A stretch of DNA of 58,550 nucleotides from Sinomicrobium pectinilyticum (lineage in GTDB: Bacteria; Bacteroidota; Bacteroidia; Flavobacteriales; Flavobacteriaceae), in NCBI RefSeq assembly GCF_003725735.1, contig NZ_RJTM01000071.1, positions 1 to 58,550 of the forward strand, read 5' to 3'. A program made the position numbers and the translations under genes. Positions within the stretch are counted from its first letter, which is position 1. Every line of letters begins with the position of its first letter. Shown here piece after piece: positions 29,195-53,167 of the stretch. Under the pieces are notes generated by a model. That model ran no database searches and was not told where the DNA came from. It worked only from the letters and a program-made list of their open reading frames with translations.

Positions 29195-29803
29195 ATGGAA
29201 GACATTGTATGGAACAACAATATGTCCTGTACCGGGAAACCCCGGGAGCACCACACGGACAGCGATGCAGAACTCTGGGTGGCATTCCTGTCCGGAAGTG
29301 CCATAGCCTTCGAGACCATTTATTCCCAAAACTTTGAGGCGTTGTATTACTATGGCCTGAAACTGGTGCCCGACGAGGCCCTTGTGGAAGATTGTATCCA
29401 GGAGCTTTTTATCCTGTTGTGGGCCAAAAGGGAGCGCTTGGGTAAGGCAAAGGTTATCAGGGCCTATCTCTACACCGTTTTGCGCCGGAACATCTTTGAG
29501 GAAGCCCGGAAGCGGGGTAAGTTGTTGACCCTGGTGGATGGCAGTGAGCGTCAAATCACAGGGGAAACCCCTCCAGAGGAACCGATGGGGCAGGAGGAAG
29601 GCGAGGAACTTTCGAAAGCCTTGGACATGGCCATGAAAACCCTGAGCCTAAAACAACGGGAACTTCTCCACCTTAAATACCACGGTCAGATGAACAATAG
29701 GGAAATCGCCCGTATCACCAAAATGCCGTACAGCCAGGTTTGCTACCATCTGAAAACCGCTATAGAGCAGCTTTATGGCAATTTAAAGCGGTTTCAGCCG
29801 TGA
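29195..29803 (+). CDS. ECF RNA polymerase sigma factor (FecI-like), copy 1
   Basis: A 202-residue extracytoplasmic-function sigma factor with region 2 (about 45-110; DCIQELFILLW) and region 4 (about 145-195; NNREIARITKMPYSQVCYHL). It is followed 186 bp later by a FecR gene and then by a SusC/SusD pair, the standard cell-surface signalling set: the receptor signals through FecR to release this sigma factor. It is paralogous to the gene at 52.5 kb. Confidence 0.9.
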   Translation: MEDIVWNNNMSCTGKPREHHTDSDAELWVAFLSGSAIAFETIYSQNFEALYYYGLKLVPDEALVEDCIQELFILLWAKRERLGKAKVIRAYLYTVLRRNIFEEARKRGKLLTLVDGSERQITGETPPEEPMGQEEGEELSKALDMAMKTLSLKQRELLHLKYHGQMNNREIARITKMPYSQVCYHLKTAIEQLYGNLKRFQP

Positions 29804-29989
29804 TATCAAGCAGGGCAAAGCACCTCCTCATACTCCGATGGACTTTGGAAGAGACAAAATCAAGTTGTGTAAATCATTGATAAAAAGTGATTTAGGGATT
29901 TTTTCTAAAAATAATGACATTTTTTTTCTAAACATTTAACGATTTTCCCTCTATATAGTTAAAGAGGCGTTCTTTTTATCAGAAGTAAT

Positions 29990-31204
29990 ATGGTTATGGA
30001 ATATCAGCATTATAACGAAGAGGATTTTATCCGGGACGACTACTTTTTACAATGGGTCCGGGAACCTGATGAGGACAGCAACTCATTTTGGAAAGAATTC
30101 CAGGAGAAATACCCGGAACAACGAGCGGTTATGGACAGGGCCAGGGAAATGGTCCTGTTGCTGACCATAAGGAAAAACGAGCCCAAGGTCCGAATGGCCA
30201 AGGGCAGGATATGGGACACCATACAGGAACAGACGGTGGGGACGGAAGTACAACACGGTGTTCGCAGACTAAAGAAAGATACAGGGTTCCTGCCCTTGTA
30301 TATGGTATCAGGGTTAATAGTTGTAATGGGCCTTGCCATACTGGGGATGTACACTTTTGGGGTATTTACAGACCATAAGGTGGCGGGCCCTCCCCAAATC
30401 ACCCTGCAATTGCAGGACGGTAGCCAACAAGTGATCGATGAAAGCGATACCCGGACCATCACCACCAAGGAAGGGCAGACACTGGGCAACCAGGATAAGC
30501 ACATACTGAAATACAACAATACACAACAGGACGCAACAAATGAGCTGGCATATAATGAGCTTAAGGTGCCTTATGGGAAAAATTTTGAATTAGTGTTATC
30601 CGACAGTTCTCACATATATTTGAATGCCGGCTCTACGTTGCGTTTTCCAGTACAGTTCCTGGCCGACCAACCGAGGAACGTGTATCTGGACGGGGAAGCC
30701 TATTTTGTTGTGGCATCGGACAAGGAAAGACCCTTTACGGTGGTTACCGACAAGATGAACACCAGGGTGTACGGCACCCGGTTTAATGTCACCAGTTATA
30801 GGAACGAGGGGAACACCTATACCGTATTGGAAGAAGGGAGTGTGGGGGTGTACCCGCCCGAAGCGGATGAATCCGCACCTGTGAAAATAGTGCCCGGTCA
30901 AAGGGCCGTGATGGAAAACGGCAACATTGCCGTGGAAGAGGTACGAGTGGAAAAATATGTGGCGTGGACCCGGGGCGAGCTCTACTTTAAGAACGACCCT
31001 TTCCAACTCATCCTCAAAAAGCTGGAACGGCATTTTAATGTGGAAATCGAAAACCGATACCCCGAACTGGACCCCTTGGAATTTACCGCCACCTTTAAGG
31101 ACAAGACCGTGAATGTAGGGGAAGTTCTGGACATTTATCGAAAACACACCCCATTCAACTATGTCAGGGAAGGCAACACCATAACCATTACCCCGCCGCA
31201 TTAG
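29990..31204 (+). CDS. FecR-family anti-sigma regulator, copy 1
   Basis: A 404-residue inner membrane protein with a cytoplasmic anti-sigma part, one membrane helix (about 103-122), a FecR domain (about 185-290; YGKNFELVLSDSSHIYLNAG) and a C-terminal DUF4974-type domain that contacts the STN domain of the receptor. The MEYQ start at 29996 is equally possible. A stretch near 30.55-30.65 kb is strongly similar at DNA level to the copy at 51.7 kb. Confidence 0.9.
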   Translation: MVMEYQHYNEEDFIRDDYFLQWVREPDEDSNSFWKEFQEKYPEQRAVMDRAREMVLLLTIRKNEPKVRMAKGRIWDTIQEQTVGTEVQHGVRRLKKDTGFLPLYMVSGLIVVMGLAILGMYTFGVFTDHKVAGPPQITLQLQDGSQQVIDESDTRTITTKEGQTLGNQDKHILKYNNTQQDATNELAYNELKVPYGKNFELVLSDSSHIYLNAGSTLRFPVQFLADQPRNVYLDGEAYFVVASDKERPFTVVTDKMNTRVYGTRFNVTSYRNEGNTYTVLEEGSVGVYPPEADESAPVKIVPGQRAVMENGNIAVEEVRVEKYVAWTRGELYFKNDPFQLILKKLERHFNVEIENRYPELDPLEFTATFKDKTVNVGEVLDIYRKHTPFNYVREGNTITITPPH

Positions 31205-31354
31205 ACACCGAGCAAAAACTCACTGCCCCCATACCGGAATGCCCCAGTAACCCTACTCAAAGGTAGGGCAGGGCAAACCCACCCCAAAACGGACTTATCA
31301 ACTACAAAAACCGCTATGGTACTGTAAACAAATTTTCAATAGTAATTCGATTGT

Positions 31355-31834
31355 ATGAAAAATATCAAGTACATATTGTTCATGGTTCTGCTGTTATCGC
31401 TCCGTATGGGAGCGCAAAGTGGAGACCCTGTGAAATGGGAGTTTTCTACTAAGGCAGTAGACAAGGATACCTATGAGGTAATTATGACGGCCAATATGGA
31501 GCACCCGTGGCATATCTATTCCCAGTTTATGGAGGATGGAGGCCCTGTGCCCACGGAAATCACCTTTACCGGGACCCCTGCCATCCAATTGGTAGGGGAA
31601 GCCAAAGAAGATGGTATTCCCATAGAAAAGTACGAAGATGTCTTTATGATTGATACCCGCTACTTTGAGGGTGTGGTCCATTTTGTACAGACCGTAAAAG
31701 TAAATGCGAATACCAAAACTCCGGTAACCGTGGAAGGTACGGTCTTGTTTATGGCCTGTTCGGATGAGCAGTGCCTGACCCCGCAGGAAAGAGACTTTAA
31801 GGTTACCCTTGACCAAAACCACAAACAAGGGTGA
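31355..31834 (+). CDS. DsbD alpha-domain-like exported protein
   Basis: A 159-residue protein with a signal peptide (to about residue 20) and the immunoglobulin-like fold seen in the periplasmic N-domain of DsbD, with the HPWHIYSQ motif. The redox pair is C135-x4-C140 (ACSDEQC). Normally this domain is fused to the DsbD membrane core; here it stands alone between FecR and SusC genes. It may pass electrons to, or bind, a thiol substrate in the periplasm. Confidence 0.8.
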   Translation: MKNIKYILFMVLLLSLRMGAQSGDPVKWEFSTKAVDKDTYEVIMTANMEHPWHIYSQFMEDGGPVPTEITFTGTPAIQLVGEAKEDGIPIEKYEDVFMIDTRYFEGVVHFVQTVKVNANTKTPVTVEGTVLFMACSDEQCLTPQERDFKVTLDQNHKQG

Positions 31835-32003
31835 ATACGAATGGTTGGATTCCCAAATTCAACCACGGATACAAAGATAGATGAAAGATGGGTTGTGGGC
31901 CTGGCCTCAATTAGTATGTAACGAAAAGCACAACGGGAAGTGCGCTCACACTCCCCGAAGTTGTTGATTATGATTTTAGCGTTAACCAAAACCAAACAAA
32001 TTT

Positions 32004-35000
32004 ATGAAAATTTTTACCAAACTCTGGGACGGGCCTTTTCCTGTCCCCAAACCAGACTTGAAGATGAAACTCACAGTACTCCTTTTGGTCTTCACTTTGT
32101 TTCAGTTGCGTGCAGCCACAAGCTATGCCCAGAAAACAAAGATCACCCTCAACATGCAGGGGGTATCCGTTTTGGAGGTCATTGAAGAAATCGAAGCTAT
32201 AACGGACTTTGGTTTCCTTTACCGCGAAAAGGATTTGGACCTGGAGCGGAAGGTCAGTGTCAAAGCAAGGAAAAAGGGAATTGAGGACATCCTTGAAACC
32301 TTATTTAAGGATGCCCCGGTAACCTATAGTATCAGTGACAAACTCATTATCCTGACCAAAAAGGGGAACACCACCAGTCCTAATAATACACCGACGTCCA
32401 AAGAAAAAACCGGGGAAAACCAACAGCAGTTTGAAGTGAGTGGTATTATCACCGACCCTGAAGGAAATCCACTGCCCGGCGTAAATATCATCATTAAAGG
32501 CACCAACCAGGGCACGATGTCTGACCCTGATGGGAAATTCACCATCCTTGCCCAGACCAAGGACATCCTTACTTTTTCCTATGTAGGATTTAAGAGAATT
32601 GAAATTCCTGTTAATGGTCCCGATCCCATAGACCTCCAAATGGAAGAGGATATCATGTCATTGGAAGGGGTGGAAGTAAATGCAGGCTACTGGAAAGTAA
32701 AGGACAGAGAACGTACCGGAAACATAAGTCGCCTTACTTCGGAAGAAATAGCAATACAACCTGTGGGCAATGTGATGGCCGCTGCTATCGGTAGGATGCC
32801 CGGGGTAAATATTCAACAAAACACAGGGTTGCCTGGAGGGAATTTTAGGATACGTATCCGTGGGCAAAACAGTTTAAGATCTGATGCCAATGAACCCTTA
32901 TATATCATAGATGGCGTCCCTTTTAGCGCTACTTCTTTGGCTACGGATTTGGCCGGTGAAATATTTAGAACGGGTGCTGGTACAAGTCCTTTAAATACAA
33001 TAAACCCAAGCGATATAGAAAGCATCGAAGTCTTAAAGGATGCCGATGCTACGGCCATCTATGGCTCCCGGGGGGCCAATGGAGTGGTATTGATTACCAC
33101 CAAAAGAGGAAGTGTCGGCAAGACCCGAGTGGATGTAAATTTTCAGCATGGTCTTGGGAAAGTGCCCCATTTTATGGATTTGTTGAATATCAAACAATAT
33201 TTGGAGATGAAACGGGAAGCTTTTGCCAATGATGATGCAGAGTTTAGAAGTTTTGATTATGACGTAAACGGTGCCTGGGATTTTAATAGGGATGTGGATT
33301 GGCAAAAACGATTGATAGGAGGCACATCTGAAACCACCAACGCCCAGCTTTCCATATCTGGTGGTGGACGAAATACCCAATATACATTTAATGGAGGATA
33401 TTACAGGGAAACTACGGTATTACCAGGGAGTTTTGCGTACCAAAGAGGCTCAGGACAACTGAATGTAAACCATACTTCGAATAACCAGAATTTTAAAGCA
33501 AATTTCTTGGTTAATTTTTCAAAAGACAAAAATAATCTACCCAGAGTGGATTATACAAACCAAGCCTTAACGTTTGCCCCAAACGCCCCCGAACCATTTA
33601 ATGGAGATGGGAGTATAAATTCTGCCAATGGAGCCTGGGGTATATTGGGTTCCCCTTTTGTAGATTTAAAGAATTCTTACAGTAATGGCACAGATAATTT
33701 GATTACCAATGGTGTATTTACCTATTCAATATTACCCGGGCTTGAACTTAAAACTAATCTTGGCTATACAACCACTAAGATGAATGAAAGGATCTTGTAT
33801 CCTATAAGTGCTCAAGATCCAACGTCTATTTTTGCCACTGGTACTGGACAAGCACAATTTGTAGATAGCAGTATTCATACATGGATTGGTGAGCCCCAAA
33901 TAGAATATGAATGGGCTATAGGTAAAGGCCACCTAAATATTCTGGTTGGAACTACTTTCCAAAAAGTAACAAGGGAATCTAAAACTATAAATGCAACGGG
34001 TATTGGAAGTGATGCCCTATTGGAAGATCTTAGTGTCGCATCAACAATCAGGGCTTCCAATAATTTTTTGGAATATCGCTATAATGCCATTTTTGGTCGT
34101 ATCCATTATAATTGGAAAGAAAAGTATTTAATAAATCTTACTGGTCGTCGAGATGGTTCATCCCGTTTTGGTACTGGAAACCAATTTGGGAACTTTGGGG
34201 CTATTGGAATGGCTTGGATATTTTCGAATGAAAACTTTATTAAAAACAATTTGCCGTTCCTTAGTTTTGGTAAACTACGTTCTAGTTATGGTACAACAGG
34301 AAATGACCAAATACCTGACTATGGATACTTGGAGACGTATAGTTCACCCGGATCTTATCTTGGAGGGACAACGTTGATTCCTGCCCGTATAGCAAACCAG
34401 AATTTTAGTTGGGAAGTCAATAAGAAGTTTGAAGTTGGCTTGGAGTTGGGAATGTTTAAGGATAGAATATCCTTATCCACTAGTTATTATCGGAACCGTT
34501 CTTCCAATCAATTGGTAGGCTTTTCCCTACCTGGAATAACAGGATTCACAATAGTGCAGGCCAATCTGCCAGCAATGGTGCAAAATATGGGTTGGGAGCT
34601 TGAATTGACCACCAGAAATATACAAACTAAGGACTTTAGCTGGGGAACTTTTGCAAACTTGACCATACCCCGAAATAAATTGGTTGATTATCCCAATTTG
34701 GAAGGTTCTCCCTATGGAAACAGGTATGTCATAGGTGAACCTTTAAATATTGCAAAAGTATATCAATATCTTGGTGCTAACCAAGAAACTGGGGAATATC
34801 AATTCCAGGATGTGGATGAAGACGAAAATGTATCATCTCCCAATGATACACAATTCGTTAAAGAGATAGGGCAACAATATTACGGAGGAATCAATAATTC
34901 GTTAACCTATAAAGGTCTGCAATTGGATTTCTTTTTCCAGTTTGTAAAACAAGTAACCCAATCATACAGAAATGCTTTTACAGCTCCTGGATTTAGTGCA

Positions 35001-35357
35001 ATAGGAGGAAATCAACCAATAGAAGTATTGGGTCGTTGGCAACAACCGGGAGATATTACGGACATTCCAAGATTTTCGGCAACCAACTCTTTATTTTCCA
35101 CGTCATTTGGTTCAAGGTGGAAGTCCAGTGACCATGCTTATGAGGATACCTCCTTTATCCGGTTAAAAAATGTATCCTTGTCCTGGAACCTTCCGATGGA
35201 GGTAGCCCATAAATTAAAATTACAACAGGCCCGGATTTATATACAAGGCCAAAATCTGTTGACGATAACCAATTATCGAGGCTTGGATCCTGAGGTAAGC
35301 CCTACAAGTTTACCTCCTTTGCGGGTGTTTACTACGGGTATTCAACTCACTTTCTGA
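32004..35357 (+). CDS. SusC/RagA-type TonB-linked outer membrane protein, copy 1
   Basis: A 1117-residue transporter. After a signal region come an STN domain (about 48-112) that contacts FecR, a carboxypeptidase-regulatory-like domain (about 147-225), a plug (about 240-360; RGQNSLRSDANEPLYIIDGV) and a beta-barrel. The STN domain shows it is a signalling transporter, matching the sigma/FecR pair upstream. The start may instead be the internal Met at 32064. The SusD partner follows after 20 bp. The neighbours suggest a peptide substrate. Confidence 0.92.
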   Translation: MKIFTKLWDGPFPVPKPDLKMKLTVLLLVFTLFQLRAATSYAQKTKITLNMQGVSVLEVIEEIEAITDFGFLYREKDLDLERKVSVKARKKGIEDILETLFKDAPVTYSISDKLIILTKKGNTTSPNNTPTSKEKTGENQQQFEVSGIITDPEGNPLPGVNIIIKGTNQGTMSDPDGKFTILAQTKDILTFSYVGFKRIEIPVNGPDPIDLQMEEDIMSLEGVEVNAGYWKVKDRERTGNISRLTSEEIAIQPVGNVMAAAIGRMPGVNIQQNTGLPGGNFRIRIRGQNSLRSDANEPLYIIDGVPFSATSLATDLAGEIFRTGAGTSPLNTINPSDIESIEVLKDADATAIYGSRGANGVVLITTKRGSVGKTRVDVNFQHGLGKVPHFMDLLNIKQYLEMKREAFANDDAEFRSFDYDVNGAWDFNRDVDWQKRLIGGTSETTNAQLSISGGGRNTQYTFNGGYYRETTVLPGSFAYQRGSGQLNVNHTSNNQNFKANFLVNFSKDKNNLPRVDYTNQALTFAPNAPEPFNGDGSINSANGAWGILGSPFVDLKNSYSNGTDNLITNGVFTYSILPGLELKTNLGYTTTKMNERILYPISAQDPTSIFATGTGQAQFVDSSIHTWIGEPQIEYEWAIGKGHLNILVGTTFQKVTRESKTINATGIGSDALLEDLSVASTIRASNNFLEYRYNAIFGRIHYNWKEKYLINLTGRRDGSSRFGTGNQFGNFGAIGMAWIFSNENFIKNNLPFLSFGKLRSSYGTTGNDQIPDYGYLETYSSPGSYLGGTTLIPARIANQNFSWEVNKKFEVGLELGMFKDRISLSTSYYRNRSSNQLVGFSLPGITGFTIVQANLPAMVQNMGWELELTTRNIQTKDFSWGTFANLTIPRNKLVDYPNLEGSPYGNRYVIGEPLNIAKVYQYLGANQETGEYQFQDVDEDENVSSPNDTQFVKEIGQQYYGGINNSLTYKGLQLDFFFQFVKQVTQSYRNAFTAPGFSAIGGNQPIEVLGRWQQPGDITDIPRFSATNSLFSTSFGSRWKSSDHAYEDTSFIRLKNVSLSWNLPMEVAHKLKLQQARIYIQGQNLLTITNYRGLDPEVSPTSLPPLRVFTTGIQLTF

Positions 35358-35377
35358 TTAATTTAACTAAAAGAATC

Positions 35378-36769
35378 ATGAAAAAAATAAACAGCTATTA
35401 TGTAAATAGGATTTATGGAGCCATCATATTTTTAGTACTCTGTATATTCCTTTCCTGTGAAGATTTTGTCGAAATCAATCCACCCAGTGATGAATTGATT
35501 AGTGAAACAGTATTTGTGAATGATGAAAATGCGATAGCAGCTATTAGAGGTACTTATTATGAATTAAAAAATGGTTTTGGCAGGGGTAATTCAACAAGCC
35601 TTACCGTTTTAGGAGCCATTAATGCTGACGATTTGGATTACCTTTCGACCAATGTGGATTTTTTAGGGTTTTATGATGCCCTGTTAATACCAGAAAATTC
35701 TTGGATTGATAATAATTGGAAAAGCTTGTACCAGGTTATTTATCAAACAAATTCCATATTAGAAGGGCTGCAGGGCTCAACAGGAATAACCCCGGATGTA
35801 AAAGAATTATTAGAGGGAGAAGCAAAATGTATAAGGGCCTTTTGTTATTTCTACCTTGTAAATTTATGGGGTGAGGTGCCATTAATCATTAGTACGGATT
35901 ATGAGAAAAACCGCCTGGCTTCACGAGCCACAATTTCACAAATTTATGAATTGATTCTTAGTGATCTTAAAGAGGCTCAGGAGCTACTCCCTGAAGATTA
36001 TGCCCATGCAGAAGAGGAAAGGGTAAGGGTTACTAAAAGTGCTGCAACAGCCTTATTGGCAAGGACATATTTATATCTTGAGGATTGGGCCCAAGCTGAA
36101 GAACAGGCGTCGAAAGTAATCGAAAACTCCAATTATATGTTAATGGAGGATTTAAATGGTGTATTCCTGAAAAATAGTATGGAGGCCATATGGCAAATCA
36201 AGCCGATAAATGTAGGACATACTGATGAAGGAAATCTATTTATCCTTACATCTACTCCTAGTATGGCTGTATCACATTATTTAATAAACACCTTTGAGTC
36301 GGGAGATAAAAGGAAATCAAGTTGGATAGGAAGTTTCTCGAATGAGATAGGTGCTTGGAATTATCCATTTAAGTATAAGGTAAAACAGGAATCAGATCCA
36401 GATAACGCAACCGAATATTCCATGGTATTCCGATTGGCAGAACAATATCTGATCCGTGCGGAAGCACGGGTGCAACAAGGAAATACTACCGGGGCACAAA
36501 AAGATATCAATATTATTCGTAACCGTTCGGGATTGAAAAATACCACGGCTATTACACAGGAGGAACTATTGGATGCTATTATACATGAAAGGCAAGTAGA
36601 ACTCTTTACGGAATGGGGGCATCGCTGGTTGGATTTAAAAAGGACCAATCGTTCAGGAGAAGTATTTGGTCCTATAAAATCTGGCTGGGAGGTTACCGAT
36701 GTATTATGGCCTATACCCCAACCTGAAATAGATAATAATCCCAATCTCATTCAAAATACGGGATACTGA
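35378..36769 (+). CDS. SusD/RagB-family lipoprotein, copy 1
   Basis: A 463-residue surface lipoprotein with a lipobox ending at Cys27 (FLSC), the SusD N-terminal TPR-like helices and the conserved C-terminal pattern (FRLAEQYLIRAEAR, then ELFTEWGHRWLDLKRT). It forms the substrate-binding lid of the SusC transporter encoded upstream. Its sequence is clearly more AT-rich than the tra genes. Confidence 0.92.
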   Translation: MKKINSYYVNRIYGAIIFLVLCIFLSCEDFVEINPPSDELISETVFVNDENAIAAIRGTYYELKNGFGRGNSTSLTVLGAINADDLDYLSTNVDFLGFYDALLIPENSWIDNNWKSLYQVIYQTNSILEGLQGSTGITPDVKELLEGEAKCIRAFCYFYLVNLWGEVPLIISTDYEKNRLASRATISQIYELILSDLKEAQELLPEDYAHAEEERVRVTKSAATALLARTYLYLEDWAQAEEQASKVIENSNYMLMEDLNGVFLKNSMEAIWQIKPINVGHTDEGNLFILTSTPSMAVSHYLINTFESGDKRKSSWIGSFSNEIGAWNYPFKYKVKQESDPDNATEYSMVFRLAEQYLIRAEARVQQGNTTGAQKDINIIRNRSGLKNTTAITQEELLDAIIHERQVELFTEWGHRWLDLKRTNRSGEVFGPIKSGWEVTDVLWPIPQPEIDNNPNLIQNTGY

Positions 36770-36784
36770 TAATAAAAATACGTT

Positions 36785-43171: not shown

Positions 43172-46063
43172 CTATTGAATTTTTTCACTTTCCGGCAGTA
43201 ATTCAATTATGCTCAGGTTATCTCTGGTAAAACATTTCCTTGCGATATCCCGGATTTCCTCCGGAGTTAAACTTTTAAGAATAGATAATTCTCTTTCATT
43301 AGCCTTAAGGTCCCAACCATTCATATTTTGCTCCATTATATAATCGCACCACCAACTGGGATTACTATTTCTAAAAAGATTTTCCCGTTTTGATTTTAAC
43401 TTACTTATCACGTTACGAAATACGGTTATATCAGGACCTTTTTCCTTTAATTCATATAATTCATTTGCGACTATCGATTTTGTCTTTTCAATTACTACGT
43501 GTTCTTTTGATTCCTCTATAACCGAAAAATGGAAAAAGTTATTATTGAACCTGGCCGCTACATCTAGTGGCCAATATAATCCTTCCATCTTTCCTCTAGC
43601 CGAAATATTAGCACTCAAGATCTCCCTTAAGATCTCTAGTTTGAAAATGGCTTCTTCTGTAGGGGGATATGTGCCCATATAATTTATACTTACCGCATAG
43701 TTATTCTTATATTCATCACTATAGAAGGTTTTATTAACACCCCTAACAGGTTGCTCAATATTTATATCCTTTTCAATATTCTTTAAGGAAATATTATTGC
43801 TTTTAGTGGGGAAATGCCCCAAATAGCGAAGTAAATATGGTTTTATGGCTTCCACTTCAAAATCGCCAGCAATCACATACGTAAAATTACTTGCATCGGA
43901 AAATAGTTTGCGGTATAGTTCCAATGACCTATCCAACTGGATGTCGGCCAAGTTAACTTGAGACTTCGGTTCATCTAACTTTATTCCATAGATTTCCGAT
44001 TTCACTAAATCATAAAACGAGTTGCCAAAGTTTTTTCGTTGCCGTAAAGTCTCTTGTTCTTTTTGAAACCAGTCCTTAAAAGCCAATTCATTTTTATTGG
44101 GTTCCGTAACATACAAATAGATTTGTTGTAATATACCTTCAATATCACCAGAAGCCACGGAACCTCTTATACTAGTGGTATTCTCATTGACCTTAATTTT
44201 TAATTCAATCTTTTTTTCCCTATTTAAACGTGCCAATTCAAATTTATTCCAGCTTCCTGCCCCACTATTCATGACAATATCAGCAGCTTTATTTGCTACT
44301 AAGCTGTCTCGTCCGTCAAATACAGAGGCACCCTGTTGACTGAGGCCAGTTATTTGTATTTCTTTGTTTTTCTTTGACGAAAGTGGTTTGAGGAAAATCT
44401 GTAAACCATTATCCAAAAGCAATTGGGTTACACCGAGTTCCTTGATTTCTTTTTGTGTATAATTAATATCCTCAGAAAGTTTACTTAATTCCGCATCACT
44501 AATCAATTGTTTAGGTCCTTCAATATCCCGATCTTGGAAAGGAGCTATATCAGTCTTTTTTATTTCTCTAATCCAGCCAGAGATAGTCTCATCATCAGGG
44601 AGGCTGTCATGCGGTATGTCCTCGGGGACTGTAAAGACCACATCACGATCTGGTGAGTCCAGCAATTTATGAGCAAAATGATGGACTTCTTCCAATGTGA
44701 TTTCCTCTATCATGCGAGTAGCCATTTCTCTTTCATATTCAGGCCCTGGAGCCAAAGCATCAAATAGGTAATGACTCTGATATTGATAGACCAATGGTAG
44801 AGGCCCCATGTTCTTATTGATTTCTTCAAGAATACTATCTTTTGCCCGCTGCAATTCAACTCTTGTAAATCCGTATCTACGTATCTGTTCCAAGCTTTTC
44901 ATCACCAATCCAAAAGCTTCAGGGATCGAAGCTACACTGCTAACATTGAATCGTGTCAGGGCTGATTCTACCTGGTATGCACCGGGGAAAGCATGAATGT
45001 AATGCAACAAAGGACTCTGGATAGTAACGTTATATTGCTGGGTAACGGAGTTCATTCGTTGACTCATCATATCATTATAGAGCCGCTCAATAAGTTTTGC
45101 TCGATACTCTTCCTTAGTCGTAGGGGTACCATTAATTTTATCTGTTGAATGATGATAGTATATTTCTATTTGCGTTTTATTGCTTGTCGAATCGGTTAGC
45201 GTCACAACCTTACCTTTACCAGGCAGTGCAATACGCATCTTTTGTTGGAATTCTTGCAAGGATTTGTCACGGGGAGCGTCTGGCATTTTAAGGTCCGAGA
45301 ATAATCCTTTGATTTGCTTTTCCACTTCGTCAACATCCACATTACCTACAATGATAAGTGCCTGTTTGTCCGGGCGGTACCAATCCTTGTAAAATCGAAC
45401 CAAGGATTCCAACTCAAATGTTTTGATGTTTTGATTGTGCCTATCTACGTAAATATTGGGGTCCGCTTTACTATGTCCTTTAGGTTCGTTCAATAGTTTA
45501 TATCGTTTTTCCGAGCGCTTTCTATCGTGATTATTAAATTCTTGTAATACTGTCCCCCGTCCATGTTTATCTACCAATTCATCATTTTGTAGATTTTTTA
45601 GTATCTGCTTATCCTGAGCAAAATCCCGGAGTCTTTGTAGGCTTTGGGAAAATAATTCGGGATCAGTATCGGGTATGGCCCATTGGTAATATACTTTATA
45701 GGGACCTGTTTGCATAAGCCAGTGTCCACGATCAGATAAATTTTTAATATAATAGTCATAGAATATGTCATCAAAATGAGAACTTTTTGTTTCGATGACC
45801 ATATGCTCGATCAAATGGGCCAGACCTTGTTGGTCATCATCTTCAAATCTACCCCCGGGACCAATCAATTGGAAAAAAATTCTTTGGTCTTTATCGGAGA
45901 CCGAATCCTGATAATTTCGGATATAATAGGTGAACCCGTTTTCCAATCGTCCATGTCGGACTTTAGGGTCCAGAGGTATCGATGTAGATATATCTTGACT
46001 TTTACCGGGAGTACAGGCCAATATAGATAAATAAAGTAATCCAAAAAACAGTTGCTTTTTCAT
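43172..46063 (-). CDS. M16-family (pitrilysin-like) lipoprotein zinc peptidase
   Basis: A 963-residue peptidase with a lipobox ending at Cys17 (LSILAC) and the inverted zinc motif H83-L-I-E-H87. A second, inactive M16 half completes the clamshell chamber that degrades peptides but not folded proteins. It is the last gene of the right-hand operon after SusC and SusD. Placed with a SusCD importer, it probably cleaves the imported peptide in the periplasm. Its DNA is AT-rich compared with the tra region. Confidence 0.9.
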   Translation of the reverse strand: MKKQLFFGLLYLSILACTPGKSQDISTSIPLDPKVRHGRLENGFTYYIRNYQDSVSDKDQRIFFQLIGPGGRFEDDDQQGLAHLIEHMVIETKSSHFDDIFYDYYIKNLSDRGHWLMQTGPYKVYYQWAIPDTDPELFSQSLQRLRDFAQDKQILKNLQNDELVDKHGRGTVLQEFNNHDRKRSEKRYKLLNEPKGHSKADPNIYVDRHNQNIKTFELESLVRFYKDWYRPDKQALIIVGNVDVDEVEKQIKGLFSDLKMPDAPRDKSLQEFQQKMRIALPGKGKVVTLTDSTSNKTQIEIYYHHSTDKINGTPTTKEEYRAKLIERLYNDMMSQRMNSVTQQYNVTIQSPLLHYIHAFPGAYQVESALTRFNVSSVASIPEAFGLVMKSLEQIRRYGFTRVELQRAKDSILEEINKNMGPLPLVYQYQSHYLFDALAPGPEYEREMATRMIEEITLEEVHHFAHKLLDSPDRDVVFTVPEDIPHDSLPDDETISGWIREIKKTDIAPFQDRDIEGPKQLISDAELSKLSEDINYTQKEIKELGVTQLLLDNGLQIFLKPLSSKKNKEIQITGLSQQGASVFDGRDSLVANKAADIVMNSGAGSWNKFELARLNREKKIELKIKVNENTTSIRGSVASGDIEGILQQIYLYVTEPNKNELAFKDWFQKEQETLRQRKNFGNSFYDLVKSEIYGIKLDEPKSQVNLADIQLDRSLELYRKLFSDASNFTYVIAGDFEVEAIKPYLLRYLGHFPTKSNNISLKNIEKDINIEQPVRGVNKTFYSDEYKNNYAVSINYMGTYPPTEEAIFKLEILREILSANISARGKMEGLYWPLDVAARFNNNFFHFSVIEESKEHVVIEKTKSIVANELYELKEKGPDITVFRNVISKLKSKRENLFRNSNPSWWCDYIMEQNMNGWDLKANERELSILKSLTPEEIRDIARKCFTRDNLSIIELLPESEKIQ

Positions 46064-46198: not shown

Positions 46199-47629
46199 TC
46201 AATAGCCCGGGTTTTGATCATTTAGATTGGGACTGTTATTCAGTTCCTCCTGTGGAATTGGATATAGTTCATCCTCCTTGGTAAAACCAGATTTTAGTAC
46301 ACTTAGAACTGTAGTTGCCCGGCCTGTACGTTTAAGGTCCAGCCAACGATGTCCCCACTCGGTGAACAATTCCAACCTTCGCTCCTGCAAAATGACATCC
46401 AGGAGGTCTTGTTGGCCGATACCAGGGTTGGAATCCGCTATCAACGCCAGCCCCGCCCGTTGTCGGATGACATCCACATCGGCAATGGCATCTCCAAGTT
46501 TATTTTGGTGTGCCCGGGCTTCGGCCCGTATCAGGTATTGTTCTGCCAGACGGAATACTGTGGAATACTCACTTCGATTTGCTCCGGGGGCACTTACCTT
46601 ATATTTATATGGGGCCAAAAAAGATGAAACATCCAGCCGAATCCATTCGTCTTTGCGAATGTCATTGGGTTCAAACTCATTCAAGAATTCTTCCCGTAGC
46701 GCATTATAACCAGAAGGTAAATTAAAATAATACCCTTCATTGGTTGCGCTATTGGCTACAAGACTTGAAGAGTGCAATTGCCATATCGCCTCTTTGTTAT
46801 TGGACAATGTAATGCTATTGAAATCCACCAAACCATAATTGGTATCGTCGATTACGATAGAAGCCTGATTTTCCGCTTTTTCCCATTCTTCCATATACAA
46901 ATAGACCCGGGCCAGTAATGCCGTAGCAGTGGCTTTATTGGGGCGTACGCGATCGCCATGGGGGTAAGTGTTGTCTAAAAGATCCTGAGCTTCCAACAAA
47001 TCTTCTTCTATTTGGAAATATACTACACTGATTTCCGTTCTGGATGCTGTGCTATTTTCCCGATAATCCGGAGTGGTAAATACAGGGATGTCTCCAAATA
47101 GGTTCACCAGATAGAAATGGCTAAATGCCCGGATGAACAGGGCTTCACCCCTTAACTGTTTTTTGGTTTCCGAAGTAACCTGTGAAGCTGTTTGGAGTCT
47201 TTCTATGAGCAAATTGGCTGAATAAATTGATTGATACATACTGCTCCAGAGGTTTAAAACCAATGGATTATCAGCCATTAGCGTATTCTCTTCAAATTGC
47301 ATCATTGTTGGTTCATCTCCTGGAGCATAAAACAATTCATCCGAGGACAACCCGGTCAAAGCCAACAAAGACACATGAGTGCCTCCAAAGGCTGCCTGTG
47401 ATAACATGTCAGCATACAAGCCTTTGGCAGTGGCTTCAGCAGTTTCATCACTAGCAAATACTTTCTCACTCACAACTTGATTTCTTGGTGGTTCCACATC
47501 CAGTAATTCTTCACAGGAAAATAATAGCAATGCGCAGCTTAATCCAATGAGAATTTGTGATATGTACTTCAAAAAGAAGATTCTCCAATCGGAAGGGATG
47601 GTATATATAGATTTTGTTTTCATATTCAT
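46199..47629 (-). CDS. SusD/RagB-family lipoprotein, copy 2
   Basis: A 476-residue surface lipoprotein with lipobox FSC (Cys39 from the first Met; a later start is possible) and the SusD signature FRLAEQYLIRAEARAHQ and ELFTEWGHRWLDLKRT. It starts 5 bp after the stop of its SusC partner. It is a paralogue of the protein at 35.4 kb, sharing the EDL-E-PP N-terminus and the C-terminal motifs. Confidence 0.92.
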   Translation of the reverse strand: MNMKTKSIYTIPSDWRIFFLKYISQILIGLSCALLLFSCEELLDVEPPRNQVVSEKVFASDETAEATAKGLYADMLSQAAFGGTHVSLLALTGLSSDELFYAPGDEPTMMQFEENTLMADNPLVLNLWSSMYQSIYSANLLIERLQTASQVTSETKKQLRGEALFIRAFSHFYLVNLFGDIPVFTTPDYRENSTASRTEISVVYFQIEEDLLEAQDLLDNTYPHGDRVRPNKATATALLARVYLYMEEWEKAENQASIVIDDTNYGLVDFNSITLSNNKEAIWQLHSSSLVANSATNEGYYFNLPSGYNALREEFLNEFEPNDIRKDEWIRLDVSSFLAPYKYKVSAPGANRSEYSTVFRLAEQYLIRAEARAHQNKLGDAIADVDVIRQRAGLALIADSNPGIGQQDLLDVILQERRLELFTEWGHRWLDLKRTGRATTVLSVLKSGFTKEDELYPIPQEELNNSPNLNDQNPGY

Positions 47630-47634
47630 TACTT

Positions 47635-50600
47635 TTAAAATTGTAACTGGATTCCTGTAGTTATCATACGCAATGGTGGGAGAGCATAACCCGTTTCAGG
47701 GTCCAAACCACTATACCCGGATATGGTGAACAGGTTTTGTCCCTGGACAAATACTTTTAACTGTTTCAATCCCATGTGTTCGATCACATTTTCAGGAAAA
47801 AAATAGGATAGGGAAAGTGTTTTTAGACGAAGAAAAGATGCATCCTCAATATTGGCGTCACTCTGACGGAGCTGGCTATACAACAAAGTCATGGTGGATG
47901 TCTGGGAAAATCGCTGTACATCAGTTAAATCGCCTTCTGATTGCCAACGACGAAGTACATATGAAGGTTGATTGACTGAATATCCTGGTGTGCCACTTGG
48001 CATATAATTTGCATTTTGTTTTGAGAATTGAAACAGAAAGGAAAGTTCCAGTCCTTTATATCGAAGGGAATTATTCAGCCCTCCATAAAAATCCCTGTCC
48101 AGAGCATTGCTGAACTGTTTGTCCTCATCATTGATGACCCCATCATCATTGACATCCAAAAACTGATGGGTTCCTGTTTCCGGGTCAACCCCCAACCAAG
48201 TATAAAGTCTCTGGATGGATAAAGGTTCTCCCACTTTAAATACCGTGGCATAGGGAGAATCCTCAATACCCGGAAATTCCAATAGCTTGTTCCTGGAAAC
48301 TGTCATATTTGCAGAGGTAGTCCATTGAAATGCACCGGTTCGAGCAATATCTCCCCGTAATAGAAATTCCCATCCGGAATTTTCAACGGTGGCTTCCGAA
48401 AAATTATCATTCACGGAAGAAAAACCTGTCATGGCTGGCAATGTTCGTTGTATTAATTGATTGGAGGACCGGTTTCGGTACCAGCTTACTTCCATGGACA
48501 ACCGGTTTTCGGCAAAACCCATAGCAAGGGAAGTTTCCAGTTTTTTGGTCTTTTCCCATTGAAAATCTGGGTTGAACAGGGCATTGGGTGATAGACTGGT
48601 CTGATTTTGATAGTTTATTCCACTAAAACGGTACAAGTCCAAGAATTGATAATTCCCAATCTGGTCATTTCCTGTGATCCCATAACTACCTCTTAATTTC
48701 CCCGAGCTCAGGAATGGAAAAAGCCTCTTGATCCAGGGTTCATCCGAAAATATCCAGGCAGCACCCACGGCACCAAAATTACCAAAGCGTTTGCCTGGTC
48801 CAAACCTGGAGGATCCATCCCTTCGGCCAGTTAAATTCAATAGGTATCTATCCTTAAAGGAATAACCTAGACGACTAAACACAGCATTGTATTTATATTC
48901 CTCGGATATATCTCTCAAAATCTGGATATTTCCGGCTCCTTCAAGAGATTCTAAAAAAAGATCAGAAGTGTATTCTCTTCCCTGGATTTGTAATAGTTCA
49001 TCAGTATTCTCCTGATAGGTCGCCCCTATAATCACATCTAATCGATGATCTTTAATTTTTTTTTGATACCTAAGTTGTGGTTCTATCAGGACAGAATTTC
49101 TATGAGAGCTGTTAAACATGGCACTAGGTGTATAATAAGGGCGAAGAAAAGGACCGAAAGAGGTCAGGGGTGTTTGCATTTTTTCAGCAAAATTCAGTTC
49201 CGTATAGCCGAAATTTGTTTTTAAGGTCAAGCCAGTTAATAGTAAATATTCCAAATTTCCATTGGCTACCAAATTTCTGTTATCAGAGTTTGTCGTCCTT
49301 TCAAGGCCAGCAAGGGGGTTGGTCCATGTTTCTCTTCCAAAGTCATTCAACTCCCAGTTCAATTCGCCATTTTCGTCATATAATTTGGGTGCATTTGGAG
49401 CCAAGGTCAATGCCGCATTCACTAGATTTTCTTGCGTTACATTGTGTTTCCCCACACTATAGTTAATGGACACAGAAGCCCTGAACCTTTGGTTGTCTGA
49501 GGTATGGTTGACGTGCAAATGTCCCGAGACCCGGTTGTACCCAAAGTCCCCGGGCAGTAATAAAGTTTCCTTATGTAAACTACCTCCGAGACGGTAAAAC
49601 GTGTTGGTATTTCCTCCCGAAACATTCCCTTGAATATCCGTAATATCAGAGGTTCCTCCCAGTAACACCTTTTGCCAATCCGTATAACGATTCTGATCCC
49701 ATGAACCGTTTATATCGGAATGTGCCGTATTATTAGGATTGGGTTCAACGCCATCGTTTGCAAAAGCTTCTTTTCGCATTTCCAAGTATTGTTGGGTATT
49801 CAGAAGGTCTATCCGGTTAGCAACACTCCCTATTCCCCTGTACATACTGAAGTCCAAATTGCTTTTTTCTTTAGAAATACCTTTTCCCTGCTTTGTAGTG
49901 ATAAGAATTATACCATTTGCCCCCCTTGATCCATATATAGCGGTGGCATCGGCGTCTTTCAAAACTTCTATACTTTCAATATTCTCGGGATTAATTGCAC
50001 TTAAAGGGTCGTATCCACCTTGGGTAATCGATCCGCCACGTGAGATTACTGGACTGGAATTTATTGGAATTCCATCTATTATATATAATGGATAATTACC
50101 TTCTGTCAGTACTCCCGGTACTGTTTTTCCTGATTCAAGGATCCTCAAACTGTTTTGACCTCTTATCCGAATCTTGGGTGCTATCCCAGGGGCCCCACTA
50201 GTAGGAGTGATTTCCAAACCTGCCACTCTACCTTGTAAAGCCATCAAGGGGCTGATCACCGGTTGGTGCTCGATTTCTTCGGCTGTCACTTTGGCAATAC
50301 TCCCCGTTCTAGTTTTCTCTGTAGTCTTATAATACCCCGCATTGAGCACAACTTCGTTCAATTCCGTAACATCTTCCTGTAATTCTATATTTAGAATTGT
50401 TTGGCTTCCCACGGTACGCTCTACGGTCCTGTACCCGATATAACTGAACACCAATATATCGGTAGGGGCAGCCATAATTTGGTACGTTCCATCAGCACCT
50501 GAAAAAGTTCCCCTATCACTGTCCTTGATATAAATGCTTACCCCTGGCATAGGGCCTTGCACATCTGAAACCGTACCGTTGATAATATGCTGTTCTTGTT

Positions 50601-51006
50601 CCATACCAGTTTTTGGTATGTCCTTTTCCACAGGAATATCATCCTTTGGGGTCAACACAATCTGCTTTTGCTCTACCCTATAGGCCATACCGCTATTGCC
50701 AAATACCTTTTGCAGTACCCGTTCCAATTTCTCATTTTTCGCCCGGATATTCATCTTACGGGAGGTATCAAGCTGGTCCTTGCGGTAAAGGAACCTGTAT
50801 TCTGTGGTTGTTTCAATTTCACGGATGACATCCAGGACCGTGGCCGATTTCAGGTCCAGGGTTATTTTTTGACTGCGGGTCCCCTCCAGACCTGCATTGA
50901 TCTGTAACAAGGTGGCAAAGAAGAGTGAGAGCAGCAGTTTCATCCGTAGGGTGATTTTAAGGCGGGAGTTCTCCCGGTGCCTTACGGCATTCCTGATAAT
51001 TTTCAT
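47635..51006 (-). CDS. SusC/RagA-type TonB-linked outer membrane protein, copy 2
   Basis: About 1123 residues, with a signal region, STN domain (about 45-110), carboxypeptidase-regulatory-like domain (about 140-215), plug (RGQNSLRILESGKTVPGVL region) and beta-barrel ending in LQF. The ATG at 51006 (MKIIRNAV) is chosen because it gives a normal export signal; the open frame extends 69 bp further. The STN domain pairs it with the FecR and sigma genes upstream. Confidence 0.92.
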   Translation of the reverse strand: MKIIRNAVRHRENSRLKITLRMKLLLSLFFATLLQINAGLEGTRSQKITLDLKSATVLDVIREIETTTEYRFLYRKDQLDTSRKMNIRAKNEKLERVLQKVFGNSGMAYRVEQKQIVLTPKDDIPVEKDIPKTGMEQEQHIINGTVSDVQGPMPGVSIYIKDSDRGTFSGADGTYQIMAAPTDILVFSYIGYRTVERTVGSQTILNIELQEDVTELNEVVLNAGYYKTTEKTRTGSIAKVTAEEIEHQPVISPLMALQGRVAGLEITPTSGAPGIAPKIRIRGQNSLRILESGKTVPGVLTEGNYPLYIIDGIPINSSPVISRGGSITQGGYDPLSAINPENIESIEVLKDADATAIYGSRGANGIILITTKQGKGISKEKSNLDFSMYRGIGSVANRIDLLNTQQYLEMRKEAFANDGVEPNPNNTAHSDINGSWDQNRYTDWQKVLLGGTSDITDIQGNVSGGNTNTFYRLGGSLHKETLLLPGDFGYNRVSGHLHVNHTSDNQRFRASVSINYSVGKHNVTQENLVNAALTLAPNAPKLYDENGELNWELNDFGRETWTNPLAGLERTTNSDNRNLVANGNLEYLLLTGLTLKTNFGYTELNFAEKMQTPLTSFGPFLRPYYTPSAMFNSSHRNSVLIEPQLRYQKKIKDHRLDVIIGATYQENTDELLQIQGREYTSDLFLESLEGAGNIQILRDISEEYKYNAVFSRLGYSFKDRYLLNLTGRRDGSSRFGPGKRFGNFGAVGAAWIFSDEPWIKRLFPFLSSGKLRGSYGITGNDQIGNYQFLDLYRFSGINYQNQTSLSPNALFNPDFQWEKTKKLETSLAMGFAENRLSMEVSWYRNRSSNQLIQRTLPAMTGFSSVNDNFSEATVENSGWEFLLRGDIARTGAFQWTTSANMTVSRNKLLEFPGIEDSPYATVFKVGEPLSIQRLYTWLGVDPETGTHQFLDVNDDGVINDEDKQFSNALDRDFYGGLNNSLRYKGLELSFLFQFSKQNANYMPSGTPGYSVNQPSYVLRRWQSEGDLTDVQRFSQTSTMTLLYSQLRQSDANIEDASFLRLKTLSLSYFFPENVIEHMGLKQLKVFVQGQNLFTISGYSGLDPETGYALPPLRMITTGIQLQF

Positions 51007-51103
51007 ACTTTTGAGTTGATTATTAGTTATTATGTTTGGCTTGTAATCAATAGTATCGGAGGGTGTTGCGAGCACCCTTCGATTTTTTGATCTTATCTGA
51101 GTT

Positions 51104-52330
51104 TCATTTTGTCATAGGTTGTGGCTTTTGGATGGTTATGGTTTTCTTTTTCATGTCGTAATCAAAAGGAGTCTGATACTGGAACAACTTTAATATCTGG
51201 TCCAGCGGTTCCCGGGTAAAAGATCCTGTGAACTTCACGTCGTTCAGTTTCTCATATCGGTTATCGATCTTTACATCAAAACGCCGCTCCAGTTCTTTCA
51301 GGATGAGTTCAAAACGGTCATCCAGAAAATAGAGCTCGCCGTCTATCCATGAGGTGTACTTGCGAATGTCCACGGTTTCCACCTGTATACTGCCGTCCTC
51401 AAAGACCGCACGTTGTCCGGGTACAATCTTTACAGGGTCTTCTTTTTTGGGACTGTTGGGCTGGTAAACCCCCACGCTCCCTTCTTCCAGTACGGTAAAG
51501 GTGTTGTTCTCGTCCTTGTAACTCGAAACATTGAACCTTGTACCGTACACCTGGGTATTTAGCATGTCAGTCACTACAGTAAATTGGGAGCGTGTCGAGT
51601 CCCGTGCCACGTCAAAGAACGCTTCGCCATCCAGGAAAACGTTCCGGGGTTTACCTTGGGGGAACTGTACGGGATAACGCAACTTGGAGCCGGCATTGAG
51701 ATAAATATGAGAACCATCGGATAAGACTAATTCAAAATTTTTACCATAGGGTACTGTCAGCTCATTGTACACCAGCTCCTCCGTTACGTCGTCCTTTGAT
51801 CTTTGGTAGGTCAATATGTTTTTGTCCTGTTTCCCCAATGCCTTTCCATCCCCGGTAGTGATCAGTCCGGAGGCCTCTTCGTCCATCACCTTGATGGTAC
51901 CGTCCTGTAGTTCCAGGGTAATCCGGTTCGGATCAAGGGTCATTGACCCTTTGCTTCCCAAAAAGTCCAATTGGTAGGCGCCATAGGCCAATGCCACAAG
52001 GGGAATAATTACAGCGGCCACTTTCAAATATCTTTTTCCTGTCTTACCGAAGATGGATTTTGGGCTGTTCATCCTGCTTTTTTCCCGGATGTTGCGCTTT
52101 TCGATGATCTCCATCCATATGCGATCCTTTTCATACGGAGTCGGGTCGTCCTCATCACGGGCAAGCAGGCGGACCATATCCCTGGCTGTTTCCACCACTT
52201 CCTTTTTCTCCGGGTGTTGGGCGAGCCAGTTATCCCAGAAATTGGCGGTAATGGTGTCCTTTTCCAATACCCATTTCTGGAAATAATGGTCCTTTGCGAA
52301 ATCTTCCGAACTGTAATCCTTGTAGGTCAC
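51104..52330 (-). CDS. FecR-family anti-sigma regulator, copy 2
   Basis: A 408-residue inner membrane protein with an N-terminal anti-sigma part, one membrane helix (about 103-125), a FecR domain (YGKNFELVLSDGSHIYLNAG) and a C-terminal DUF4974-type domain. It is the close paralogue of the protein at 30 kb and is encoded between its sigma factor and SusC genes. Confidence 0.9.
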   Translation of the reverse strand: MTYKDYSSEDFAKDHYFQKWVLEKDTITANFWDNWLAQHPEKKEVVETARDMVRLLARDEDDPTPYEKDRIWMEIIEKRNIREKSRMNSPKSIFGKTGKRYLKVAAVIIPLVALAYGAYQLDFLGSKGSMTLDPNRITLELQDGTIKVMDEEASGLITTGDGKALGKQDKNILTYQRSKDDVTEELVYNELTVPYGKNFELVLSDGSHIYLNAGSKLRYPVQFPQGKPRNVFLDGEAFFDVARDSTRSQFTVVTDMLNTQVYGTRFNVSSYKDENNTFTVLEEGSVGVYQPNSPKKEDPVKIVPGQRAVFEDGSIQVETVDIRKYTSWIDGELYFLDDRFELILKELERRFDVKIDNRYEKLNDVKFTGSFTREPLDQILKLFQYQTPFDYDMKKKTITIQKPQPMTK

Positions 52331-52540
52331 TGTTGTTTGTTTTGAGGGGAAGGAAACAACCCCCTTTATAGAGTGGAGTGGATTTTTTTCCGGATCACTT
52401 CAAAAAAATGGAAAAAAATGAAAAAAAATTATGTCAAGCATATGTCAAAGGCTGTCAAAGGGCAGGGGGAACCCGCTTCCGTAAAGGTTTTTAAGCACTT
52501 TAGTGTAGGATAGGAGTCTAAGCGAAAAAGAGGGAGGGGG

Positions 52541-53167
52541 CTAAAACCCAAAATGGTCCCGTAAACGTTTCATGGTCCTTGCCATGAGGTTATACACGGA
52601 TTTCGTATCGGTATCCATGATCTCGGCTATTTCGGGGTAATCGATCCGGCAGTGGAATTTCAGGAAGATGATTTCCTGCTGGTTGGTATTGAGTTGGGAT
52701 ACCGCATGCCTGACTTCCTTGCGGCGCTGGTCAAAGGCCTGTCGCTCCACCAAAAGGTGCTCCAGGGAAGGAACAGGTTCTCCCTCCAGCAATTCATCCA
52801 CCGGGACCAGGCTTCTTTTTCCGGCCTTTATGGCACGGGCCACCACTTTTCTACTGATACAGGTCAACAGGTAATGGGTGATGATACGTACATCCCCAAG
52901 CCTTTCCCTGGTCTCCCAAAGTTCCACAAAGAGATCCTGGATGGCATCGCCCACCAGCTCCCGGTCCCTGACCTGTTTGAGGCCAAACCGGAACAGGATA
53001 TTGAAATTACGATCGTATATGGAGGCAAATGCGGATTCACTGCCTTCCCGGAACGCCCGCCAAAGTTCGGTGTCGGTTTGATTTTGGACCACGGATTCCC
53101 CGTTCCCGGGAATTTCATGGGGCTCCCTATCTGGTGTGGATGGTTTTCGATTAAAGGATAGTGCCAA
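52541..53167 (-). CDS. ECF RNA polymerase sigma factor (FecI-like), copy 2
   Basis: A 208-residue sigma factor with region 2 (about 48-115; DAIQDLFVELWETRERLG) and region 4 (about 155-205; YPEIAEIMDTDTKSVYNLMAR). It heads the right-hand operon, 210 bp upstream of FecR. It should direct transcription of the SusC/SusD/M16 operon when the receptor binds its ligand. Confidence 0.9.
   Translation of the reverse strand: MALSFNRKPSTPDREPHEIPGNGESVVQNQTDTELWRAFREGSESAFASIYDRNFNILFRFGLKQVRDRELVGDAIQDLFVELWETRERLGDVRIITHYLLTCISRKVVARAIKAGKRSLVPVDELLEGEPVPSLEHLLVERQAFDQRRKEVRHAVSQLNTNQQEIIFLKFHCRIDYPEIAEIMDTDTKSVYNLMARTMKRLRDHFGF

Follow-up and report, generated by a model that had tools for sequence, protein, structure and literature searches.

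The window analysed here, i.e. 58,550 nt of contig NZ_RJTM01000071.1 of Sinomicrobium pectinilyticum (Flavobacteriaceae), carries between positions 29,195 and 53,167 a mirror-image locus, which is made up of two paralogous copies of one conserved two-armed unit. In this unit arm A (sigma factor, FecR, an optional DsbD-alpha-like domain, SusC, SusD and a peptidase or TlpA-like protein) converges on arm B (DUF6520 small protein, beta-propeller and MauE). Judging from comparisons with related loci, the two arms tend to travel together, and the interior genes appear to behave as an exchange cassette that is traded between bacteria as a block, which is new here.

Architecture of the two units

The left unit runs on the plus strand from an extracytoplasmic function (ECF) sigma factor (29,195–29,803; Sigma70_r2, E 3e-10) through a FecR anti-sigma factor (29,990–31,204; FecR and FecR_C), a DsbD-alpha-like domain (31,355–31,834; DsbD_N at 25.7 bits, just above the cut-off of 25), SusC (32,004–35,357; STN, CarbopepD_reg_2, plug and barrel) and SusD (35,378–36,769; SusD family match) to a TlpA/ResA-like thioredoxin-fold protein (36,785–38,134; AhpC/TSA-Redoxin), the C-terminus of which is formed by a DUF3738 domain. 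On the minus strand it meets a DUF6520 small protein with a signal-peptide-like N-terminus and six cysteines (38,222–38,527; PF20130, E 4e-10), a membrane-anchored beta-propeller (38,594–39,784) and a MauE protein with a CSCGG motif (39,918–40,415; PF07291, E 2.5e-34). The right unit has the opposite orientation: MauE (41,017–41,493; PF07291, E 6e-34), propeller (41,524–42,642) and a DUF6520 protein with four cysteines (42,738–43,070; PF20130, E 1.6e-8) lie on the plus strand, facing an M16 (pitrilysin-type) peptidase (43,172–46,063; PF05193, E 1e-25), SusD (46,199–47,629; SusD family match), SusC (47,635–51,075), FecR (51,104–52,330; FecR family match) and an ECF sigma factor (52,541–53,167; sigma-70 regions 2 and 4) on the minus strand. 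The right SusC is listed with a GTG start, and an internal Met may be the true start; its residues 1–150 (50,626–51,075, minus strand) hold the signal peptide and STN, with STN at residues 93–144 and CarbopepD_reg_2 at 165–243. Both DUF6520 and both MauE proteins score above the family cut-offs, and the two propeller reading frames have no Pfam family match. Each unit thus has an adjacent pair of SusC TonB-dependent transporter and SusD, the SusC being of the STN-bearing type with FecR and ECF sigma genes alongside.

A first-pass annotation of this DNA had given the same gene order and strands, and all genes that it named are indeed open reading frames (ORFs) that match the stated families in a Pfam scan. 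It had also described a near-palindrome, of which the centre does fall where it had been placed, within the gap at 40,416–41,016, but which consists of two complete A + B units back to back rather than of outer and inner modules. Recent inverted duplication was rejected as the origin of the mirror, since inverted shared stretches of more than 60 nt are only 72–80% alike and the nearest relatives of the two units differ. In trees, the left MauE, propeller, SusC, SusD and DUF6520 are closest to locus L050 of Muricauda sp. TY007, which has the same mirror layout with an M16 unit that lacks the propeller, while the right MauE, propeller, SusC and SusD are closest to contig C218 of the host genome (in a tree without the propeller-less M16 unit of L050). 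The phylogeny of left and right paralogues that had been proposed therefore gives each unit its own relatives, with the exception of the right DUF6520, which is closest to L071, contrary to the other right-unit genes.

Distribution in Bacteroidota and copies in the host

A MauE scan yielded 79 named loci, taken from the best 80 of 277 matches, among which a propeller is present in 76, DUF6520 in 73, SusC in 73 and SusD in 72. SusC and SusD face the propeller in 72 of the 79, and 68 of these 72 complete units have a DUF6520 match. Four of the other seven loci (L052, L055, L097 and L120) are cut by contig ends, L051 has only a piece of the propeller at its end, and L060 and L073 are exceptions. 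In a phylum sample of 395 genomes (host included), in which part of the first-look candidates were scored and counts are hence lower bounds, the propeller model matches at least 34 genomes and DUF6520 at least 32. All 37 strong-propeller loci outside the host have SusC and SusD facing the propeller, together with MauE in 36 (33 fused to the propeller), DUF6520 in 36 and, in 34, a match to an S9-like model that was built mostly, though not exclusively, from S9 proteins; this set overlaps with the 79, at least five of the 37 being near identical to named loci. SusCD pairs therefore co-occur with MauE, propeller and DUF6520 across Bacteroidota, as the first-pass annotation had proposed to check, and far beyond the window locus; confinement to this one locus, which it had named as a refuting outcome, is not what was found.

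FecR matches occur in 16 of the 79 loci and a SusC of more than 1080 aa in 18 of the 72 relatives, i.e. neither FecR/sigma nor the STN-FecR-sigma combination is family-wide. Two Pedobacter loci (L056 and L083) have a row of several sigma-factor-like ORFs beside FecR, upstream of MauE. The double mirror is rare, being found once on reading the 79 gene strings, in L050. Of 14 DUF6520 loci that lack a strong propeller, five have neither MauE nor SusD. The other nine (L165–L168 and L171–L175) are a smaller, propeller-less form of the unit in which MauE and DUF6520 face SusD; eight of them also have SusC and six a TlpA-like gene.

The host assembly (5.65 Mb in 235 contigs, of which the window is C222) contains 8 propeller matches, 9 MauE over cut-off, 14 DUF6520 and 75 SusD. 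A SusD faces all eight propellers, within 4 kb in seven cases and at 9 kb in C218; given 75 SusD in 5.65 Mb, only ~6% of genes would be expected to have one facing them from downstream at up to 9 kb, and the pairing is therefore not a matter of chance. The recurring pattern is SusC-SusD-hydrolase converging on DUF6520-propeller-MauE, with sigma factor and FecR in some. TlpA follows SusD in C171 and C189, whereas C218 carries M16 with further S8 and M1 peptidases and four DUF6520, C133 a thioredoxin-fold protein and two DUF6520, and C134 an amidohydrolase with PD40 repeats (MauE was not seen there, at a contig edge). In C170 there is an 870-aa protein which, by elimination, is one of the two S9 matches of the second scan set described below, and MauE and propeller, though separate in the window, form a single ORF of 501 aa (14,895–16,400). 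On C18, SusC-SusD-M16 faces DUF6520 alone; an M16 gene thus lies beside a TonB transporter gene in the right window unit, C218 and C18.

Mosaic sequences and possible cassette exchange

Compared with L050, the left unit has genes of low synonymous divergence (dS) on both sides of diverged ones: FecR (93% aa identity, dS 0.25), DsbD-alpha (88%, 0.27) and MauE (92%, 0.45) flank SusD (dS 1.6) and the propeller (dS 2.75), with TlpA at 27% aa identity. The break in SusC is gradual, dS being 0.66 over codons 1–100 and above 1.4 over most of the remainder. In the right unit FecR (94%, dS 0.22 over 242 codons) and SusC codons 1–100 (97%, dS 0.15) are close to L050; beyond these codons the proportion of synonymous differences (pS) is 0.67–0.96 with falling identity, and SusD, M16 and MauE are 43, 29 and 32% identical. 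The drop in SusC lies at residue ~151, between STN and CarbopepD_reg_2, in comparison with both L050 and L053. Relative to L053, the right sigma factor (83%, dS 0.61), FecR (86%, dS 0.53) and SusC start (dS 0.23) are again similar and the remainder of SusC is mostly saturated, while in the left unit MauE (89%, dS 0.50) adjoins a propeller with dS 2.4, the match of which breaks at residue ~46, past the anchor. Constraint alone does not account for the conserved MauE and FecR, because synonymous sites give the same contrast.

The same can be seen among relatives. From 107 units (excluding L157 with its short SusC and L161, which is outside the range), 77 with fused MauE-propeller were compared, 68 of which are distinct, giving 2278 pairs that are non-independent events and mostly saturated throughout; genes were called alike or unalike at pS 0.45 and 0.65, thresholds chosen after a first pairwise comparison had been seen. 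Any two of propeller, peptidase, SusD and SusC barrel (six combinations) are alike together in 8–9 unit pairs and discordant in 0, compared with one discordant pair each for DUF6520 against the cassette genes, 5–8 for MauE and 19–25 for the SusC N-terminus. An anchor that is alike with every cassette gene unalike (type A) was found in 27 pairs, the anchor being the SusC N-terminus alone in 19, MauE alone in 4 and both in 4 (L057/L065, L065/L079, L099/L103 and, at threshold, L065/L086). In L065/L079, pS is 0.25 for MauE, 0.43 for the SusC N-terminus and ~0.8 for the rest; similarity breaks off past helix 5 of the fused protein and around SusC residue 120–160. The reverse (type B, cassette alike and anchor unalike) is seen in L093/L118 (cassette 0.05–0.17, SusC N-terminus 0.88, MauE 0.45) and L082/L086 (cassette 0.02–0.12, SusC N-terminus 0.73, MauE 0.18). 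In fact, L093 and L118 share one 8,591-bp block at 94% that ends at SusC codon ~106 and is followed by short alignable pieces only; on the MauE side it comes close to the contig end of L118. The genes of both modules thus change together in the pairs where change is visible, in line with their first-pass description as one system. Four loci filed under different Flavobacterium names (L065, L066, L067 and L068) fall into one cluster with near-identical unit genes (all compared pS ≤0.03), which suggests recent transfer.

Co-variation of the arms was followed by distance correlations on 80 units with 2000 within-genome shuffles, the figure being the number of shuffles that reach the observed value. 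This number is 0 for SusC-SusD and propeller-DUF6520, 13 for SusD-MauE, 16 for SusC-MauE, 23 for propeller-MauE, 60 for SusD-propeller and 76 for MauE-DUF6520. Within the host genome alone, SusC-propeller reaches a rho of 0.73 (0/2000), followed by SusD-MauE (4), SusC-SusD (10), propeller-DUF6520 (23), SusC-MauE (105), SusC-DUF6520 (325), propeller-MauE (459), MauE-DUF6520 (1069) and SusD-DUF6520 (1310).

Proteins of arm B and likely cargo

The DUF6520 proteins are small and of the Sec type, with exactly four cysteines in 79 of 87 copies (median position of the first 46, median gaps 6, 7 and 18), and 11 of the 79 loci hold multiple copies. Mean pairwise identity is 0.40 in the leader versus 0.22 in the mature part; in a control the leader scored 0.348 versus 0.187 and 0.188 for the signal peptides of peptidase and SusD, a comparison that is biased, as the leader was part of the model with which the DUF6520 genes had been detected. 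The NVEALA family (PF14055) was set aside as a candidate for the same family: of 198 genomes, 2 matched at E 1e-3 and 0 over cut-off, while a Bacteroides control was detected.

MauE and propeller are often one polypeptide (fused in 45 of the 79 MauE-centred loci). The AlphaFold model of a fused homologue from F. hydatis (L121, 503 aa; predicted local distance difference test, pLDDT, 93.5) combines the helices of MauE with another long one (152–179) and a sheet-rich domain, for which Foldseek finds beta-propellers, including DUF4221 (3s9j) and the BtuG lipoproteins of vitamin-B12 transporters; no solved structure of any sequence relative of the propeller was found at E 1. By the positive-inside rule, CSCGG and propeller are predicted to face the periplasm. 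The phylum sample also gave nine weak propeller matches, and in the three that were retrieved the distant propeller adjoins an AcrB-type resistance-nodulation-division (RND) pump (L162, 4,229–10,421; L163, 400–5,033; L164, 3,677–12,027), none with SusCD; MauE lies nearby in L162 and L163, and L162 and L164 have small ORFs rich in Cys. Possibly these three represent related machinery that exports Cys-rich peptides, which we mention as a lead only.

Between arm B and SusD, the 72 units have 74 opposite-strand ORFs of more than 200 aa (in 68 units), 55 of which were scanned. The first set of 37 proteins, chosen mainly among ORFs without a TlpA or M16 match, comprised 28 prolyl oligopeptidase-like (S9) proteins, 2 metzincins, 2 thioredoxin-like proteins and 1 subtilase, with ABC transporter parts at one locus; the second (18 plus the C170 protein) gave 10 Redoxin, 4 M16 and 2 S9 matches. 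No glycosidase family was found among the 55 ORFs of this gap (E 1e-8 for the 37, E 1e-6 for the 18 and the one host protein). With peptidases and thiol reductases beside SusD, peptide is therefore favoured as the probable cargo of these SusCD pairs. To this extent the peptide-import reading of the first-pass annotation stands, while a tight match between DUF6520 and SusCD does not appear as a correlation.

Mobile element context

The locus lies on an integrative and conjugative element (ICE), as annotated earlier, because the window has an integrase beside tRNA-Pro, TraM, a TraG-type ATPase and a coupling protein; the right end of the element falls beyond the contig. By eye, C171 and C170 carry conjugation-type genes that resemble those of the window, and four of the eight host units sit on three ICE-like contigs. 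No plasmid matched in a nucleotide search, for which the right MauE-propeller was the sole query. A TPR-AraC-type regulator (26,754–28,481, plus strand) precedes the left unit, and in some other genomes homologues are located near the unit. The ICE also carries a HipA_C-domain gene (19,991–20,914).

What the unit may do

We tentatively favour, at less than even confidence and only slightly over a nutritional importer, the explanation that the unit makes its own Cys-containing DUF6520 peptide with a cognate SusCD importer, the two being traded as a cassette. Arm B would send DUF6520, usually with four cysteines, through Sec; at the inner membrane, MauE and the membrane-anchored periplasmic propeller would act on its thiols. 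The TonB-dependent SusCD would import either the cognate peptide or a cargo that it binds, and would hand this over to a thiol reductase (TlpA) or a periplasmic peptidase, the latter being M16 in this locus and S9 in most relatives; in units with an STN-bearing SusC, FecR and sigma factor, cell-surface signalling would report the import to the cytoplasm. The parts that might touch the ligand (propeller, DUF6520, peptidase, SusD, and plug and barrel of SusC) would be swapped as one cassette, whereas membrane and signalling parts (MauE, SusC N-terminus, FecR) could stay, a split into constant and variable halves as in pherotype or siderophore-receptor systems. We infer export from the cell, the match of DUF6520 to SusCD, redox handling and signalling, and likewise cassette exchange, with selection favouring matched parts, as the origin of the mosaics. 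A version in which the unit's own disulfide-bonded DUF6520, shaped by MauE-propeller, is an outer-membrane pherotype or private ligand, recognised by the matched SusCD, imported for destruction, with signalling where STN, FecR and sigma are present, with cassettes traded on ICEs and chromosomal sites, seems rather unlikely.

Several results weigh against a self-made ligand or against simple cassette exchange. Over the 80 units, 718 and 247 of the 2000 shuffles reach the observed SusC-DUF6520 and SusD-DUF6520 values, i.e. there is no correlation beyond shuffles; SusC-propeller is reached by 169 over all genomes and SusD-propeller by 465 in the host alone. Diversifying point mutation of DUF6520 was considered and not seen (mature dN/dS 0–0.54 where measurable), the structure model of one copy (pLDDT 78) matches no solved fold, and no outer-membrane export gene was seen in the units of the window, so that DUF6520 may remain periplasmic. 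A classical pherotype system, moreover, does not have eight propeller units per genome. As for the exchange, both cassette edges occur together in just four fused pairs and the left window unit, and in 19 of the 27 type A pairs the SusC N-terminus, which may exchange by itself, is the only anchor that is alike. Three pairs alike in the SusC N-terminus (L081, L084, L118) come from within one species record set, F. granuli, which suggests that this part is also exchanged on its own between paralogues. Relative to L053, the left DsbD-alpha (74% aa identity) and SusC codons 1–100 are saturated at synonymous sites. Divergence inside the cassette suppresses recombination, and linkage of the block may therefore be passive. 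If DUF6520 is not the ligand, SusCD could take environmental Cys peptides as nutrients (RagAB-like or protease-associated), which S9, M16 or S8 peptidases or TlpA would dismantle with MauE, propeller and DUF6520 as periplasmic redox or processing aids, the cassettes being tuned to different foods. We consider this quite possible, if short of probable: a peptidase or thioredoxin-fold gene follows SusD, the propeller is present in eight copies in the host, SusC and SusD are uncorrelated with DUF6520 with no outer-membrane exporter in sight, and the propeller-less units often have a TlpA-like gene. It leaves unexplained, however, why a secreted four-Cys protein is kept in 68 of 72 units, is duplicated in 11 of 79 loci and changes with the importer.

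The near-constant spacing of the four cysteines would also suit a lock-and-key metallophore, i.e. a secreted DUF6520 that scavenges a metal or cofactor, is re-imported by its own SusCD, much as FpvA is matched to pyoverdine, and is digested to release the cargo, as would a signalling part (FecR and sigma in some units) that is kept while receptor and ligand parts change; lacking a SusC-DUF6520 correlation, this is improbable. Escape from phages or bacteriocins, with selection for new SusC and SusD surface alleles, fits the inclusion of SusC barrel and SusD in the cassette, and periplasmic genes could hitch-hike between recombination anchors, these being the stretches that stay alike. Yet the change does not stop at the peptidase and DUF6520 but also takes in the propeller, which is discordant with SusD and SusC barrel in 0 of 2278 pairs and alike in 9, and we regard this explanation as very unlikely. 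SusC and SusD are best known from glycan uptake, but an ordinary polysaccharide utilization locus is scarcely credible here, as the 55 gap ORFs scanned gave no glycosidase match. The nutritional alternative can draw, in addition, on published gene clusters in which a TonB transporter is encoded together with an M16 peptidase or, in some that lack the protease, with redox enzymes (PMC6793856).

The unit joins three poorly understood parts of Bacteroidota, namely DUF6520, the MauE-propeller protein and peptidase-linked SusCD, and makes testable what peptide-type SusCD systems import and why so many of them exist. If the ligand is indeed self-made, uptake through TonB and SusCD would allow private communication by peptide, or scavenging. 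A literature search returned nothing on DUF6520, NVEALA, or MauE with TonB-dependent transporters in Flavobacterium, which does not prove absence from print; on MauE with SusC, or recombination of SusC/SusD cassettes, no title among the matches listed concerned this locus, at partial subscription coverage.

Comparison with known systems

RagAB-type SusCD of Bacteroidota import peptides, and the likeness to the present unit lies in the SusC/SusD pair, with the peptide cargo here being suggested by the neighbouring peptidases; the window unit differs by its opposite-strand MauE/propeller/DUF6520 arm, the operonic peptidase or TlpA and the mosaic cassettes. In the mau cluster, MauE and MauD occur with a propeller subunit and a Cys-rich small subunit, similar to the combination of MauE, beta-propeller, Cys-rich small protein and, in some units, thioredoxin-fold protein found here; unlike mau, the unit proteins have no Pfam match at E 0.01 to methylamine dehydrogenase subunits (MauA/MauB) or MauG, and SusCD is attached. 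In the pyoverdine/FpvA system of Pseudomonas, the ligand-making genes and a TonB receptor with a signalling domain vary together, but pyoverdine is a non-ribosomal peptide and not a Sec-exported Cys protein like DUF6520.

The right unit, with its M16 gene beside a TonB transporter gene, resembles Fus-type or protease-associated import (M16 FusC, PqqL), where the two genes likewise adjoin and redox enzymes occur where the protease is absent (PMC6793856). Those clusters are described for Proteobacteria and without MauE, propeller or DUF6520, the main text of that source containing neither 'Bacteroidetes' nor 'SusD'. In comQXP of Bacillus, a variable processing gene, a variable precursor whose N-terminus is conserved and a variable sensing half of the receptor stand against a constant signalling half (PMC6334282, PMC5385187, PMC4408185). 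That system belongs to a Gram-positive organism and signals through a histidine kinase with a response regulator, whereas the units described here have SusCD, with FecR and sigma factor in some and a hypothetical role in communication. Within the limits given above, the sequence pattern nevertheless resembles that of comQXP: the putative precursor with its conserved N-terminus, the gene next to it and the would-be sensing part of the receptor change in concert, while the signalling part stays constant.

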